NCBI RefSeq assembly: GCF_900105765.1
Contig: NZ_FNTX01000001.1
Span: 1,770,387-1,834,386, forward strand
Length of the DNA: 64,000 bases
From: Ruania alba
GTDB lineage: Bacteria > Actinomycetota > Actinomycetes > Actinomycetales > Beutenbergiaceae
Direction of reading: 5' to 3'
Shown: piece by piece, positions 57,504 to 64,000 of the stretch
How the letters are laid out: each line of letters opens with the position of its first letter
How positions within the stretch are numbered: position 1 is the stretch's first letter
The notes under the pieces: model-generated
Seen by the model: only the letters and a program-made list of their open reading frames with translations
Told to the model about the DNA's origin: nothing
Databases searched by the model: none
Program-made: the position numbers and the translations under genes

Positions 57504-58835
57504 TCAGCAGGTGCGCAGCAGCCGCTCCAGCACTCGCACGCCGAACTCCACGGCCGCCACCGGCACCCGCTCATCCACGCCGTGGAACATCCCCGCGAAA
57601 TCCATCTCGGCGGGCAGCTGCAACGGTGCGAAGCCATATCCAGTGATGCCCAGATCGGCGAGGTGCTTGTTGTCGGTTCCGCCGGAGAGCATGTACGGCA
57701 GTACTGTCGCCCCTGGGTCCTCGGCGTCCAGGGCGGCCACCATCCGATCCACCAGGTCACCGGTGAACGGCACCTCCAGGGCGATCGCGCGCTGGACGTC
57801 CTCGAACCGGACGCCGTCACCGGCGAGCTCACGCAGGGTGGCCATCGTCTGCTCCTCCTGCCCGGGCAGGAACCGCACGTCGATCACCGCCTCAGCACTG
57901 CCGGGCACCACATTGGCCTTGTAGCCTGCGTCGAGCTGAGTGGGGTTGGAGTACGCGGACAGGGTGGCTCCGACGAACTTGCTGGTGGAGCCGAGCGCCT
58001 GCACGAGCATGTCGACCGAAGCCGGGTCATCCGGATCGAACGGCAGCCCGGTGAGCTCGGACACCCCGTCCAACAGGGCGCGCACCGTGGGTGAGAGGTC
58101 CCTGGGCCAGGTGTGCGCGCCGATCCGGGCGACCGCCCCGGCAAGCCGGGTCACCGCGTTGTCCGTATTGATCTGAGAACCGTGACCGGCGGTGCCTTCA
58201 GCGATCATCCGCATCCAGGCGAGGCCCTTCTCGGCCGTCTGCAACAGATAGGCACGGCGCCCGCCCAGCTCGACCGAGTAGCCGCCCACTTCGCTGATCG
58301 CCTCGCTGGCCCCGGCGAACAGCTCGGGCCGATTCTCCACCGCGTACCGGGCGCCGTAGGTACCGCCCTGCTCCTCGTCGGCGAAGAAGGCGATAATCAG
58401 GTCCCGTGGGGGCTGCCACCCGGAACGCTTCATGTCCCGCACCACGGCGAGGATCATCGCGTCCATGTCTTTCATGTCCACGGCTCCACGGCCCCAGATC
58501 ATGCCGTCCATCTCGTCGCCGCCGAACGGGTCCATCTTCCAGTCGCGCGCCTGCGCGGGCACCACGTCCAGGTGGCCGTGCACCACCAGGGCGGGGCGAG
58601 TGGGGTCAGTGCCGGGGATGCGCAGCACCACGTTGGCGCGGCGGTCCGCGGACTCGAAGTACTCCGGTTCGTAGCCCACCTCGGTCAGCAGGCCCATCAC
58701 ATACTCGGCAGCCTCCCGCTCCCCCGGCCCGGAGCTGTCCCCGTAGTTGGAGGAGTCGATCCGGATCAGGGCACGGCAGATGGCAACGGCATCGAGCTCG
58801 GCCGGGGTAGGAGTAGGCGTGGTGTCGGTGGCCAT
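57504..58835 (-). CDS. M20-family metallopeptidase/deacylase
   Basis: 443 residues of the ArgE/DapE/ACY1/CPG2 group. Zinc site: HGHLDVVP (His, with catalytic Asp two on), GRGAVDMKD (bridging Asp), FFADEEQGG (catalytic Glu and zinc Glu), and late His in GGTDNKHLADLG. A dimerisation lid domain is inserted (about 200-310). Substrate likely a dipeptide or N-acyl amino acid. Its ATG shares one base with the stop of the upstream M3 gene (TGATG). Confidence 0.9.
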   Translation of the reverse strand: MATDTTPTPTPAELDAVAICRALIRIDSSNYGDSSGPGEREAAEYVMGLLTEVGYEPEYFESADRRANVVLRIPGTDPTRPALVVHGHLDVVPAQARDWKMDPFGGDEMDGMIWGRGAVDMKDMDAMILAVVRDMKRSGWQPPRDLIIAFFADEEQGGTYGARYAVENRPELFAGASEAISEVGGYSVELGGRRAYLLQTAEKGLAWMRMIAEGTAGHGSQINTDNAVTRLAGAVARIGAHTWPRDLSPTVRALLDGVSELTGLPFDPDDPASVDMLVQALGSTSKFVGATLSAYSNPTQLDAGYKANVVPGSAEAVIDVRFLPGQEEQTMATLRELAGDGVRFEDVQRAIALEVPFTGDLVDRMVAALDAEDPGATVLPYMLSGGTDNKHLADLGITGYGFAPLQLPAEMDFAGMFHGVDERVPVAAVEFGVRVLERLLRTC

Positions 58836-60916
58836 CAGAGGAGTCCTTTGCGTCGCAGCAGCGGTTCGATCACGGAGTCACGACCACGCAGGTCGCGGTA
58901 GGAGGCGAGGGGGTCCCGGGCGTGCCCACGGCTGAGCAGCGCCTCTCGGAAGCGTTGACCGGCGGTGCGGTTGAGTCCGCCGTCGGTGCCTTCGGCCGCC
59001 TCGTCGCGGAACCAGTCCACGGTGTCGGCGTCGAGCACCTGACTCCAGATGTAGGAGTAGTAGCCGGCGTCGTACCCGCCGCCGAAGGTGTGGTTGAAAT
59101 AGGTGGAGCGGTAGCGCGGCGGCACCAGGTCGAGCGCCACCCCGGCCTTCTGCAACGCTGCCGCCTCGAACGCCTCCACCTCGCCGGGTGTGGTGGGAAC
59201 CTGTTCCGGGGTGAGTTGGTGCCATGCCTGGTCGAGCATCGCGGCGGCCAGGTACTCGGTCGTATCGAAGCCGACGCCATAGGCCTGGGAGGCGCGCAGC
59301 TGGTCGAGGGTGTCGACCGGGAGCGCCTCGCCGGTGAGGTGGTGGCGGGCGAAATGGGCAAGCACCTGCGGGTGCCACGCCCACATCTCGTTCACCTGGG
59401 AGGGGTACTCCACGAAGTCCCGCGGCACGGACGTGCCGGCAACGGAGGGATACCGCACCGCGGTGAACAGCGCGTGCAGGGCGTGGCCGAACTCGTGGAA
59501 CGCAGTGATCACCTCGTCCCAGGTGAGCAGGGTGGGCTCCCCGGGGGCAGGACGGTTGATGGTGAGGTTGTTCACCACCACCGGTCGATGCCCGAGCAGT
59601 TCGGAGGCGTCCAGGAGGGTGTGCATCCATGCTCCACCGCGCTTACCCTCGCGAGCGTAATAGTCGCCGAGGAACAATCCCAGCGCGGTGCCGTCGGCCT
59701 CGTGCACCTCGAACACCCGCACGCCGTCGGCGTAGCCGATCAGGTCGGGGCGTTCTGTGAGTGTGATCCCGTACAGCTGACCGGCGGCATAGAAGACACC
59801 GTCGGTCAGGACCCGGTCCAGCTCCAGATAGGGGCGTAGCGCCTCTTCGTCGAAGGCGTAGCGCTGCCCGCGCACCCGGTCGGCGTACACCGCCCAGTCC
59901 CAGGCGGCGAGCTGGGCATCCGGTGAGTCCGCCTGCAGAGCGATGGTCAGGTCCTCCGCCTCACGCATCGCGTTGCGCGCCGCCGCCGGGGCCAGCCGGG
60001 CGAGCATCCCGTTGACGGCGTCCGTCGTCCCGGCCGTGGCACCTTGCGCCACGTAGTCAGCGTGGTGGGCATAGCCGAGGAGTTGGGCGCGTTCGGCCCG
60101 CAGGCGCGCCAGGTCCAGCACGATCTGCCGGGTGTCCGAGGCGCTGTCCAGCCCGGTGCCGCGGCTCAGCGAGGCTGTGTGCACGCGTTCCCGGAGGGTG
60201 CGGTTGGTGGTCTGTCCGACCACTGGCTGAGGTGTCGGCAGTCCGAGCGTGATCAGGTACCCCTCGCGGTCGCGGTCCTGCGCTGCTTCCCGCAGGGAGG
60301 ACACCGTGCCGGCCGAGAGGCCGGCGAGCTCCCCAACATCGGGCACGTGCACGGCCGCTGCTTCCATACCGGCCACGACTCGTTGGGAGAACTGCGTCTC
60401 CAGTGACGTGATGCGACCGTTGAGCTCGCGTAGGTGCGCCTTGTCGGCGGCTGAGAGGGTGATCCCCGCGCGCTCGAAGAGGGTGCGGTAGCGGTCCAGG
60501 ACCCACCGTGTCTCGGCCGGCGTGGACTCGTCGAGGTTGCGTGCCGCCTCGACGATCCTGGTGTAGATGCGATCGTCGAGCCACAGGGCGTCGGAGTGGT
60601 CGGCCAGGCGTGGCGCGACCTCGGCCTCGATCGTGCGGATCTCGTCGGTGGCGGCCGAGCTGACCAGCGTGAAGAAGACCGCCTGCACCCGGTCCAGGAG
60701 CGCACCGGAGGACTCCAGAGCGTCAAGCGTGTTGGCCACAGTCACCGGTTCGGGATTGCTGGCGATGGCCTCCCACTCGGCTCGCTGCTGCGCCAACCCC
60801 GCCTCGAAGGCTGGGCGGAAGTGCTCGACGCGGACCGCCGCGAAGTCCGGTAATCCGTACGGCAACGGCGACGGAGCCGCGAAAGGATTGGCGGCTGGGA
60901 GGGAGGTCGAGGGCAT
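58835..60916 (-). CDS. M3-family peptidyl-dipeptidase (Dcp-like)
   Basis: 693 residues, cytoplasmic, thimet-oligopeptidase fold. Zinc motif HEFGHALH and downstream Glu region NEMWAWHPQVL; C-terminal substrate loop with FGGGYDAGYYSYIWSQVLD, typical of Dcp/OpdA. It releases dipeptides or short peptides; together with the adjacent M20 enzyme it could finish degradation of proteasome products, which is inference from position. Confidence 0.93.
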   Translation of the reverse strand: MPSTSLPAANPFAAPSPLPYGLPDFAAVRVEHFRPAFEAGLAQQRAEWEAIASNPEPVTVANTLDALESSGALLDRVQAVFFTLVSSAATDEIRTIEAEVAPRLADHSDALWLDDRIYTRIVEAARNLDESTPAETRWVLDRYRTLFERAGITLSAADKAHLRELNGRITSLETQFSQRVVAGMEAAAVHVPDVGELAGLSAGTVSSLREAAQDRDREGYLITLGLPTPQPVVGQTTNRTLRERVHTASLSRGTGLDSASDTRQIVLDLARLRAERAQLLGYAHHADYVAQGATAGTTDAVNGMLARLAPAAARNAMREAEDLTIALQADSPDAQLAAWDWAVYADRVRGQRYAFDEEALRPYLELDRVLTDGVFYAAGQLYGITLTERPDLIGYADGVRVFEVHEADGTALGLFLGDYYAREGKRGGAWMHTLLDASELLGHRPVVVNNLTINRPAPGEPTLLTWDEVITAFHEFGHALHALFTAVRYPSVAGTSVPRDFVEYPSQVNEMWAWHPQVLAHFARHHLTGEALPVDTLDQLRASQAYGVGFDTTEYLAAAMLDQAWHQLTPEQVPTTPGEVEAFEAAALQKAGVALDLVPPRYRSTYFNHTFGGGYDAGYYSYIWSQVLDADTVDWFRDEAAEGTDGGLNRTAGQRFREALLSRGHARDPLASYRDLRGRDSVIEPLLRRKGLL

Positions 60917-60988
60917 CCCTCATTCTTACCTGATGCATGACCGGAGCGAGTTCGTCCGAACCGGTCGCACATCGCGGGTCTCATGTCG

Positions 60989-60994
60989 TACACT
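60989..60994 (+). promoter_or_regulatory. Promoter -10 of the small RNA
   Basis: TACACT, seven bases before the predicted 5' end near 61001. No clear -35. Confidence 0.45.
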
Positions 60995-61000
60995 TTTTGA

Positions 61001-61135
61001 CAAGCCGGGATCAGTCCCCGTCCCCCTCGGAGGCGTAGAAGTTCCGGTCAGCCGCGACGGCCGAACGGCCCCCTCTGAACGGCCGATCGCGCGGCGGCCC
61101 CGACTGCGCCAGACGCGTCGGGGCCGCTTTCATTC
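61001..61135 (+). ncRNA. Candidate small RNA, 6C-like
   Basis: A ~135-nt transcription unit with no ORF: -10 TACACT (60989-60994), a first hairpin closed by CCGGGA/TTCCGG (61005-61010 with 61042-61047) exposing CCCCC at 61022-61026, a second closed by CGGCCG (61058-61063 with 61080-61085) exposing CCCCC at 61069-61073, and a perfect GC-rich terminator. Two stem-loops with C-runs are the hallmark of the actinobacterial 6C RNA, although runs here are five C. Name by structure only; a covariance search would settle it. Confidence 0.55.
61094..61134 (+). terminator. Rho-independent terminator of the small RNA
   Basis: GCGGCCCCGAC (61094-61104) and GTCGGGGCCGC (61117-61127) form a perfect 11-bp stem, extended inside by GCG/CGC past one bulged T, and followed by TTTCATT. 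No annotated + strand gene precedes it, which is the main argument for the small RNA. Confidence 0.8.
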
Positions 61136-61203
61136 TGCGTGGGTCGCAGGCCTTCCGGTGGGCGTTAGACCCGCCGCTCCTCGGTCGAGCACCGGCAACC
61201 GGC

Positions 61204-61242
61204 TGTGACACGGTTCACATCGTGAACCGTTCCGGCTATCGT
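61204..61242 (+). promoter_or_regulatory. Subtilase promoter with Crp/GlxR-type site and overlapping palindrome
   Basis: TTCACA (61214-61219) and TATCGT (61237-61242) are -35 and -10 with a 17-bp spacer. TGTGA-N6-TCACA (61204-61219) matches the Crp/GlxR consensus exactly and covers the -35, at about -38 to -42, a class II activator position. A second dyad, ACGGTTCAC (61210-61218) and GTGAACCGT (61222-61230), overlaps it and could bind a repressor. Confidence 0.65.
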
Positions 61243-61297
61243 CGGACGGTGTCCCACAGCCGGGACACTCCCGAAATCACGAATGAGGAGACCCTTC

Positions 61298-64000
61298 ATG
61301 CGTCGATCTTTCCGGTCCGGCACTTCCCGGACGAGGCGCGCGGCCATTGCGATCGGCGGTGCAGCGGCTCTCGCGCTGACGACCGCCATCCCGATCAGTG
61401 CGGCCTCAGCCGACGACGTCACCAGCCTCGGTTCTGCCTCCGACTACGGTGCGGCCGCGGAGCCGACCGGCCTGCAGGCCGAGTCCTCCCCGACAGGGGC
61501 CTGGTTCGTCGAGACCTCAGGCGCGCCCACCAGCCGAGGCGGGAACGCTTCCGAGAACTCCCGGCACGCTCGGGAGGTCCGGGCAGAAGCCGAGGCCCTC
61601 GGTGTGGACATGGAGGTCCGCGAGGAGTTCTCGGCCCTATGGGCCGGTCTATCGGTGAATATGACCGACGACGGTGCAGCCCTGATGGCGCGAGCCGAGG
61701 GAGTGCAGGCGGTCTACCCCGTGCTCACGGTCTCCGTCCCGCCGACACCCACGTCGACGGAGAAACCGGAGATGGGCACGGCCGTCACACTGACCGGTGC
61801 AGACATCACCCAGAGCGAGCTCGGGTACACCGGCGCGGGCGTGCGGGTGGGAATTATCGACACCGGCGTCGACTACGACCACCCCGACCTCGGAGGTACT
61901 GGCGAGGACACCACGTTCCCGACCGACCGAGTACCCGTGGGTTACGACTTCGTGGGAGACGACTACAACGCGGACTCCGGCTCGGCCGCCTACCAACCCG
62001 AGCCTCGTCCCGATGACGACCCGGACGACTGTCAGGGCCACGGCACGCACGTGGCCGGAATCGCCGGCGCGAGTGGTGACCCGACGGCAGACGGCGTCCG
62101 GGGCGTGGCCCCGGACGTGACCTTCGGTGCGTACCGGGTGTTCGGCTGCGACGGTTCCACCACGAGCGACATCATGATTTCGGCGTTGGAGCGTGCCCTG
62201 GCCGACGGGATGGACGTGGTGAACATGTCCATCGGCGCCGCGTTCGCCACATGGCCGGAGTATCCGACCTCGGTGGCCAGCAGCGCACTGGTGGACGCCG
62301 GTGTGGTGGTCGTTGCCTCAGCGGGGAATTCCGGGGATCTCGGGCTGTGGGCCACCGGTGCTCCGGGGACGGGGTCCGACGTGATCGGAGTGGCCTCCTA
62401 CGACAACGTGGAGTTCACCACCACCTCCTTCACCACCGAGCCCGACGGCGGGGTGTACCCGTACATCACGGCGTCCGGTGGTGGTGAGGCACCCACGAGC
62501 GGGACCCTCCCGCTGGCCGTGGCGGACGCTCCGCTCGCCTGTGAACCGCTTGCCGGTGACTACACGGGGCAGGCTGTGGTGGTCCAGCGTGGCGACTGCT
62601 CGTTCCACATCAAGGGCGTGCACGCCGAGGAGGCGGGCGCCGCGGCGATGGTGCTCTACAACAACGTCGACGGGCTAGTCAGCCCGACGGTGGCCGGCGA
62701 CCCGCCGGTGACGATCCCTGTGGCGGCGCTCTCGTTGGCCGATGGGGCCAACCTGGTCGCGGCAATCGAGGACGGCTCGGCGACGGACCTGGCCTGGTCC
62801 GACGAGGTTATCTCGGTGCCCAACCCGACCGCGGGTCTCATCTCCGACTTCAGCTCCTACGGCATGGCCGCGGACCTGAGCCTGAAGCCGGATCTGGGCG
62901 CACCGGGTGGGCAGATCTGGTCCACGGTCCCGCTGGAGCAAGGCGGATACGGGTCGAAGAACGGAACCTCGATGGCGGCACCCCACGTCGCGGGCGGTAT
63001 CGCGTTGCTGCTGGAGGCACGCGCCGATCTCGGTCCGGCCGAGATCCTCGACGTGCTGCAGAACTCGGCCGACCCGACGCTGTGGTCGCTGAACACCGAC
63101 GTCGGACTGCTCGAGCCGGTCTTCCGGCAAGGCGCCGGCATGCTCGACATCGACGACGCCATCCTCAGCACCGTGCGGGTCTCCCCCGGTGAACTCTCGC
63201 TCGGAGAGAGCGAGGGCGGACCGGTCTCGGAGACGTTGACCGTGCAGAACGACGGTGCGCAGGACGTGACGTACACGATCACCCACGAGGACGCGATCTC
63301 CACAGCGGGGAACCCGGACGACCCGGGCTTCTTCTACGGCGAGAGCACCGTGGACGTGCGCGAGTCGGTGACCGTTCCGGCCGGAGGCGAGGTGTCCTTC
63401 GACGTGACCGTCTCGCCGGCCGCGGACCTGGAGCAGGCACTCTACGGGGGCTATCTCACGCTCATGCCGGAGGACGGCGAGCCGGTGCGGGTGCCCTACG
63501 CGGGATTCGCAGGCGACTATCAGGACCTCCCGTTGCTGGGTGACATCGGGGCGAACGACCTCCCGGTGCTCGGACAGCTGACCGCCTGCGACCGCCTGGT
63601 CGGCGTGGACTGCACCTGGAACGGCACGTGGAACCTGATGCCGGACGGCGCGACGTACTCCATGGCCGAGGGCGACGTCCCGACGGTCCTGGTGCACCTG
63701 GACGCGCCGGCACAGTCGGTGGATCTGACGGTGTATGCAGCCGTCGACGGTGAGCGCGGTGAGCCGATCGGCTCCACGGCCACCTTCCTGGACACCGACT
63801 ACGTCGGCCGTAGTGGCGGTGCCGCTGCGTTCACGCCCTACACCTGGGATGGCGTGCTCGGGTCCGTGTACCGGGCCGGACGGCACAACCAGGACTGGGC
63901 GGTGCCGGACGGTGACTACATCATCGGGCTGACCGCCGTGAACGCCCTCGGCGACCCGGACAACCCCGATCACGTGGAGACCGCCGAAACGGCGGTGTTC
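61298..64000 (+). CDS. Secreted S8 subtilisin-like serine protease, 3'-truncated by window
   Basis: 901 residues visible. A signal peptide with Arg-rich n-region ends near ISAASA|DD. A propeptide (about 60-150) leads to the catalytic domain: Asp188 (GIIDTGVDYDHPDL), His248 (CQGHGTHVAGIAG), Asn in VVASAGNSGD and Ser558 (NGTSMAAPHVAGG). A PA-type insert (about 400-510; QRGDCSFHIKG) sits between His and Ser, and Fn3-like beta domains follow after ~625, as in lactocepin/C5a-peptidase-type or Streptomyces secreted subtilases. GAGGAG 7 nt before ATG 61298 sets the start. Likely an extracellular protein-scavenging enzyme under cAMP-type control. Confidence 0.93.
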   Translation, partial: MRRSFRSGTSRTRRAAIAIGGAAALALTTAIPISAASADDVTSLGSASDYGAAAEPTGLQAESSPTGAWFVETSGAPTSRGGNASENSRHAREVRAEAEALGVDMEVREEFSALWAGLSVNMTDDGAALMARAEGVQAVYPVLTVSVPPTPTSTEKPEMGTAVTLTGADITQSELGYTGAGVRVGIIDTGVDYDHPDLGGTGEDTTFPTDRVPVGYDFVGDDYNADSGSAAYQPEPRPDDDPDDCQGHGTHVAGIAGASGDPTADGVRGVAPDVTFGAYRVFGCDGSTTSDIMISALERALADGMDVVNMSIGAAFATWPEYPTSVASSALVDAGVVVVASAGNSGDLGLWATGAPGTGSDVIGVASYDNVEFTTTSFTTEPDGGVYPYITASGGGEAPTSGTLPLAVADAPLACEPLAGDYTGQAVVVQRGDCSFHIKGVHAEEAGAAAMVLYNNVDGLVSPTVAGDPPVTIPVAALSLADGANLVAAIEDGSATDLAWSDEVISVPNPTAGLISDFSSYGMAADLSLKPDLGAPGGQIWSTVPLEQGGYGSKNGTSMAAPHVAGGIALLLEARADLGPAEILDVLQNSADPTLWSLNTDVGLLEPVFRQGAGMLDIDDAILSTVRVSPGELSLGESEGGPVSETLTVQNDGAQDVTYTITHEDAISTAGNPDDPGFFYGESTVDVRESVTVPAGGEVSFDVTVSPAADLEQALYGGYLTLMPEDGEPVRVPYAGFAGDYQDLPLLGDIGANDLPVLGQLTACDRLVGVDCTWNGTWNLMPDGATYSMAEGDVPTVLVHLDAPAQSVDLTVYAAVDGERGEPIGSTATFLDTDYVGRSGGAAAFTPYTWDGVLGSVYRAGRHNQDWAVPDGDYIIGLTAVNALGDPDNPDHVETAETAVF

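Follow-up and report, generated by a model that had tools for sequence, protein, structure and literature searches.

Location and organization of the element

The window, a 64 000 nt stretch of the 4.83 Mb genome of Ruania alba, contains an intergenic gap of 381 bases (60917–61297) between a peptidase M3 gene on the minus strand and an S8 subtilase gene on the plus strand. A putative small RNA gene, hereafter the element, lies within this gap. The features of the locus are as follows.

58835–60916, minus strand: peptidase M3 (dcp-like) gene, Pfam PF01432; divergent neighbour with its start at 60916
60989–60994, plus strand: −10-like hexamer TACACT, read directly
61001–61133, plus strand: proposed small RNA gene of ~130 nt, based on conservation, covariation and shared layout; exact ends predicted
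61004–61048, plus strand: hairpin 1 with C-rich loop, C5 run at 61022–61026; from the fold and the loop sequences
61051–61092, plus strand: hairpin 2 with C-rich loop, C5 run at 61069–61073; from the fold, the loop sequences and both-side changes at two pairs
61093–61134, plus strand: hairpin 3, an intrinsic-terminator-like stem (61093–61128, outer pair G-U) and tail; from the fold
61204–61242, plus strand: separate S8 promoter-like region, TGTGACACGGTTCACA and TTCACA-17-TATCGT; from the promoter scan
61283–64000, plus strand: S8 subtilase gene with PA and Fn3-like domains, Pfam PF00082, PF02225 and PF06280; continues past the window end

The S8 gene has two possible starts, 61298 or, 15 bases earlier and in frame, 61283. 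The hexamer, the hairpins, the terminator stem and the gap were found by direct reading and by folding to lie where a sequence-only reading of the window had placed them, with some caveats. The hexamer, called promoter-like, resembles a −10 and has the counterparts TATAGT, TACAGT, TAGAGT or TAGCAT in relatives. It stands 6 nt 5′ of the element start in 13/16 copies, namely those of Ruania, Occultella and a further genus (g4); the three copies of the Pseudactinotalea group have TAGCAT, and there the spacing differs. No −35 is recognizable at the element and no conserved −35 was seen among the copies, while a sigma-70 scan found no promoter at the element itself and a single site, 61214–61242, ahead of the S8 gene. 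Both of the C5 runs ascribed to the loops are present, but in the MFE fold of the window copy, and likewise in those of the Ruania copies, part of the hairpin 1 run is paired. The terminator had been called very strong; the tail is just TTTCATT (61128–61134), and a terminator scan (5 T in 8) returned none at the element. Given the missing −35 and the interrupted T run, the hexamer can count as no more than a −10, and the terminator combines a strong stem with a modest tail.

The S8 gene lies downstream of the element on the same strand in 16/16 loci and the M3 gene adjoins the element in 15/16, so that the element sits between the two peptidase genes in 15/16 loci. The exception, L013, is a locus on a 4.8 kb contig; here, upstream of the element and at the expected place of the M3 gene, Rfam matches a group II intron at positions 787–880 (57.6 bits). 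With the S8 match taken from residue 44, the distance from element to S8 is 279 nt at the window locus and 797, 1185 and 1221 nt in L006, L007 and L008, respectively. In these three Ruania genomes element and S8 are separated by an opposite-strand gene for a SpoU-type RNA methylase (called by Pfam in L006 and by reading of the sequence in L007 and L008).

Within the S8 promoter-like region, TGTGACACGGTTCACA (61204–61219) is a perfect TGTGA-N6-TCACA that overlaps the S8 gene's −35-like hexamer. The motif is presumably CRP/GlxR-like, and exact copies of it are found 3′ of the element in 11/16 loci.

RNA structure and sequence conservation

The stretch 60995–61135 folds at −71.6 kcal/mol, compared with −57.5 ± 4.0 for shuffled sequences (z −3.5; 0/200 shuffles as good), and the narrower stretch 61001–61133 gives z −3.3 with 1/200 shuffles as good. 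Folding of 13 of the 16 copies (L004, L011 and L012 were left out) returned the same layout in 13/13, two hairpins with C-rich loops followed by a terminator-like hairpin, with z values from −3.34 to −7.42. The hairpins are thus kept in relatives, a check that the sequence-only reading had itself proposed.

In a model-based structural alignment 97.3 % of cells pair; 14 of the 16 aligned sequences had gone into the model, and the alignment leans to its own structure. Changes on both sides of a pair number 20 cells, against 5.6 ± 1.9 in shuffles (0/500) and at most 3 in slid controls. They fall on 8 of 38 pairs, against 4.4 in shuffles (3/500) and at most 2 in slid controls, and include three pairs in the apical helix of hairpin 3. 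The covariation score is 0.199, against 0.132 in shuffles (0/500), and no slid control exceeds 0.066. This alignment shows no excess of further pair types (23 versus 21.8; 162/500 shuffles). RNAalifold, run on a sequence-only alignment, gives covariation a small share, −1.88 of −49.83, and 7/38 pairs are changed on both sides.

The loops are the best-kept part of the element, both cores being invariant or nearly so. The loop 1 core, CCGTCCCCCTCGG, is present in 15/16 copies, L013 being the one that deviates. Loop 2 follows the pattern CGG-C5/6-TC-C/T-G in 16/16 copies, with C5 in the window copy and C6 in the 15 others, while loop 1 has C5 in 15/16. Several alignment columns contain one-base gaps that are unfit for a reading frame, which argues against a protein product. 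Comparison indicates that the element is a conserved, clade-restricted putative small RNA gene. Conservation, covariation, the −10-like hexamer with its fixed spacing in 13/16 copies and independence from the neighbours lend good support to the earlier proposal of an orphan transcription unit encoding a C-rich-loop small RNA.

Distribution among relatives

A homologue of the element is found beside the same genes in 16/24 family genomes: 8/8 of Ruania, 4/4 of Occultella, 3/3 of the Pseudactinotalea group (g8; Pseudactinotalea terrae, P. suaedae and Actinotalea caeni) and 1/1 of the further genus g4. A DNA search recovered the element in 14/24 family genomes, and a covariance model built from those 14 copies (R1) extended this to 16/24 with E values of 4.1e-6 or better. 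Across the other 273 genomes drawn from the order R1 had two weak matches, with E values of 0.31 and 0.93, and on reading both lack the two C-rich loops; across 296 class genomes it was beyond chance in the window's own genome alone, with seven others at E 0.49–0.96. The two-loop pattern matched 8 records in a genome collection of 84 980 species, all from Ruania, Occultella or the Pseudactinotalea group. A plasmid collection gave no match, and the two-loop pattern was not found in viral contigs. As the filters of searches over 40 genomes can miss weak matches, and as the two-loop pattern is narrow and does not fit L013, more distant relatives of the element may exist.

Among 15 relatives the element is 65–95 % identical to the window copy, compared with 48–74 % upstream (50 bases ending 10 nt 5′ of the element) and 46–66 % downstream (70 bases 3′ of the element), and its identity is above that of both flanks in all 15. 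The value of 65 % belongs to L090 and is rough, since that match, 119 nt long, stops before the full 5′ end and hairpin 1 is misaligned; a fold of a longer stretch of L090 has the same three-hairpin layout. In Occultella the element is 81–83 % identical, and the parts of the neighbouring proteins contained in the loci are ~66 % (M3) and 55–57 % (S8) identical.

Relation to 6C and other known RNAs

The sequence-only reading had suggested an RNA of 6C type. PMC4046766 describes 6C as two stem-loops with typically six C each, and as ~100 nt by Northern blot in C. glutamicum. PMC12395582 describes probed B11 of M. marinum as three stem-loops, with six C in loop 2 and nine C in loop 3; loop 3 is both terminator and active loop, and a C-rich loop represses mRNAs by pairing, as compensatory mutations showed. 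For M. abscessus, PMC10470900 reports six G in the eccB4 5′ UTR that are able to bind either C-rich loop of B11, and repression is kept in single-loop mutants.

The Rfam scan of the window gave no match to the 6C family, RF01066, at the gathering score (47 bits), and a 421 nt stretch of the site gave none at E up to 5. Loci of relatives were likewise without a match, in eight at the gathering score and in six at E up to 10. Above its cut-off RF01066 was found in 64/148 class genomes and in 0/24 family genomes. At E up to 10 some match appeared in 21/24 family genomes, none above the cut-off; 13 of the 16 carriers of the element are among these, and their best match (29.9 bits; L048, G018), the one among the carriers' matches that was read, is without two C-rich loops. 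In the opposite direction, R1 run over 31 6C or 6C-like loci gave weak matches. The highest-scoring of them, at 20.9 bits (E 0.048), lies outside the 6C place; those overlapping the 6C place occur in 5/31 loci at 9.2–17.9 bits.

The layout differs as well. The element is actinobacterial and small (a predicted ~130 nt, beside the ~100 nt given for C. glutamicum 6C), with two hairpins bearing C-run loops (C5 and C5 in the window), all of which it shares with 6C (B11 in mycobacteria). However, whereas the last hairpin of B11 is C-rich and itself the terminator, both C-rich hairpins of the element precede a separate terminator-like hairpin whose loop is not C-rich. In the 16 of 30 above-cut-off 6C loci that were read, the motif closes with the second C-rich hairpin, and at least three T follow this hairpin directly in 9 of the 16. 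The 6C of an order relative, L024, adjoins ssd- and TadA-like genes (names from translations); the element does not lie beside such genes.

TadA itself was found in 24/24 family genomes. Rfam scans of 18 of these 24 TadA loci (one per genome) returned no 6C at E up to 10, and a hairpin finder run over ~1.5 kb upstream of TadA in 24/24 gave two weak matches (scores 8.5 and 8.0), which were not accepted. This finder is positive in 29/30 6C loci, the centre of the short locus L038 falling outside its coverage, and it reaches threshold in just 2/16 copies of the element, so it is no test for elements of that kind.

The best RF01066 match of the family, 37.9 bits (E 0.003), is L045 in G022, which lacks the element. 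Two C-rich hairpins can be read in L045, and it may be a true 6C; for that reason a loss of 6C across the whole family is not established. L045 is located elsewhere than ssd/tad, which makes this neighbourhood the usual 6C site at most and no strict feature.

By the tests made, the element is 6C-like in its predicted loops and outside the 6C family, given the lack of an RF01066 match at the site or in relatives' loci, the weak model matches and the differing layout. The covariance-model check named in the sequence-only reading thus came out negative, and membership of 6C in the family sense was not borne out.

Alphaproteobacterial ar7 (RF02342) is the sole Rfam family with a weak match across the whole element, through the stretches CCCCGUCCCC and CCCCCUCU. 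With 13.8 bits (E 1.9), where the gathering score is 60, this match is at chance level. The sX13 RNA of Xanthomonas, a gammaproteobacterium, is reportedly also a small RNA with C-rich loops, and is likened to the element here by description.

As neither the Rfam scans nor the literature search produced a match, the element is regarded as undescribed. The literature searched, mostly without subscription papers, yielded no earlier description of the element for small RNAs of Ruania, Occultella or Pseudactinotalea. For Occultella and RNA, among the matches listed, titles other than PMC9130861 do not concern small RNAs. In that paper a table names Ruania and Occultella, and its subject, Ms1, is another RNA (PMC9130861).

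Candidate targets

Target prediction from the loops, also proposed in the sequence-only reading, yielded no supported target in S8 leaders, at nuoK and ackA, or from the motif GAGGGGG before RTG. In the window's genome this motif is not enriched, with 195 occurrences versus 335 for the reversed pattern; the locus was examined for 30 of the 195. The genes nuoK and ackA were picked because GAGGGGG precedes their starts in the window's genome. At least four G in the 25 nt before the nuoK start are found in 5/15 readable carriers, a count that leaves out G017 (row short of the start), and in 4/8 non-carriers, so the nuoK tract does not follow the presence of the element. For ackA a G-tract is present in 4/17 carrier rows (G017 has two) and 0/8 non-carriers; as these rows lack an anchor at the true start codon, the difference carries little weight in either direction. 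Both genes are counted as unsupported.

Pairing of the loops with the S8 leader is unsupported too, being not beyond shuffles for 16 species and two loops with 200 shuffles each (best 18/200). Two Pseudactinotalea loci, L089 and L090, have GGGGGG directly after the −10-like sequence of S8, complementary to the C6 loop. Their pairing with loop 2 is equalled by 30 and 37 of 200 shuffles, and no six-G run was seen in the other S8 leaders. With three computed target tests giving no support, the mechanism set out below rests on the loops and on analogy.

Proposed mode of action and alternatives

The element looks like its own transcription unit. It probably encodes an autonomous small RNA of ~130 nt whose C-rich loops would pair in trans with G-rich stretches of mRNAs and block their translation. 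Comparison of the copies supports the RNA structure, the loop sequence, the element's own −10-like hexamer, the terminator-like stem and independence from the neighbours; transcription, action by loop pairing and repression are the predicted parts of the proposal. Transcription would start ~6–7 nt after TACACT and stop after the third hairpin. Two stems would then expose the C-rich loops, one UCCCCCU-like and one CCCCCCU-like, through which the RNA would most likely base-pair in trans with several mRNAs, at G-rich stretches in or close to their ribosome binding sites. Such pairing would block translation in the way of 6C/B11 in mycobacteria, and this 6C-like mode of action is a best guess.

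A different origin is unlikely, namely that the element is a highly diverged true 6C RNA which has acquired a separate terminator and a new location. The same bacterial class, the two C-rich-loop hairpins, the lack of an above-cut-off 6C in the family (0/24) or beside TadA, and the R1 matches that overlap the 6C place in 5/31 loci would all fit such a descent. However, RF01066 stays silent even at relaxed E values (up to 5 for the window stretch, up to 10 for the loci of six relatives), the second C-rich hairpin is the terminator in 6C/B11 and not in the element, and the site differs from the 6C site of L024, the order relative that was read closely. The neighbourhood suggests another reading, in which the element acts in cis on the S8 protease gene, as its leader or attenuator. 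S8 is indeed downstream on the same strand in 16/16 loci, and no S8 homologue (E 1e-30) was found in the eight family genomes without the element; however, this co-occurrence may be a single event in one clade. The S8 gene has its own promoter-like region 3′ of the terminator stem, and in L006, L007 and L008 an opposite-strand gene intervenes over distances of 797, 1185 and 1221 nt. Because of this promoter-like region and the intervening gene, the RNA is unlikely to be just an S8 leader, and a role of this kind is considered improbable.

The C-rich loops could also bind a protein, or the RNA could serve as a decoy, instead of pairing with mRNA. A loop sequence kept almost to the letter and three computed tests without a supported target are compatible with this; however, no partner is known and the nearest studied analogue, B11, works through pairing, so there seems little chance that it is correct. 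Autonomous action through loop pairing is accordingly the reading preferred here. Going beyond it, a speculative and rather doubtful scenario is that a separate RNA family was born in the Ruania–Occultella–Pseudactinotalea clade, independently reached the 6C solution of paired C-rich loops and replaced a lost 6C as global C-loop regulator, with its pairing loops freed from the terminator.

The element would add an RNA family absent from the Rfam 15 scans made here. It would also provide a natural test of what a 6C-type RNA needs, its C-rich loops being free of the terminator constraint. Additionally, a 6C-like regulator in a group without an above-cut-off 6C would make function and replacement comparable.

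Family genomes without the element

The M3 gene is present in 7/8 non-carriers at 56–69 % identity. The remaining one, G002 (genus g3), has a distant M3 relative (32 %) and no close M3 homologue, and S8 and the element are missing from this genome as well. Its nuoK is 85 % identical to that of the window, compared with 85–96 % in carriers and 69–73 % in the other non-carriers. Perhaps the whole region has been lost from G002.
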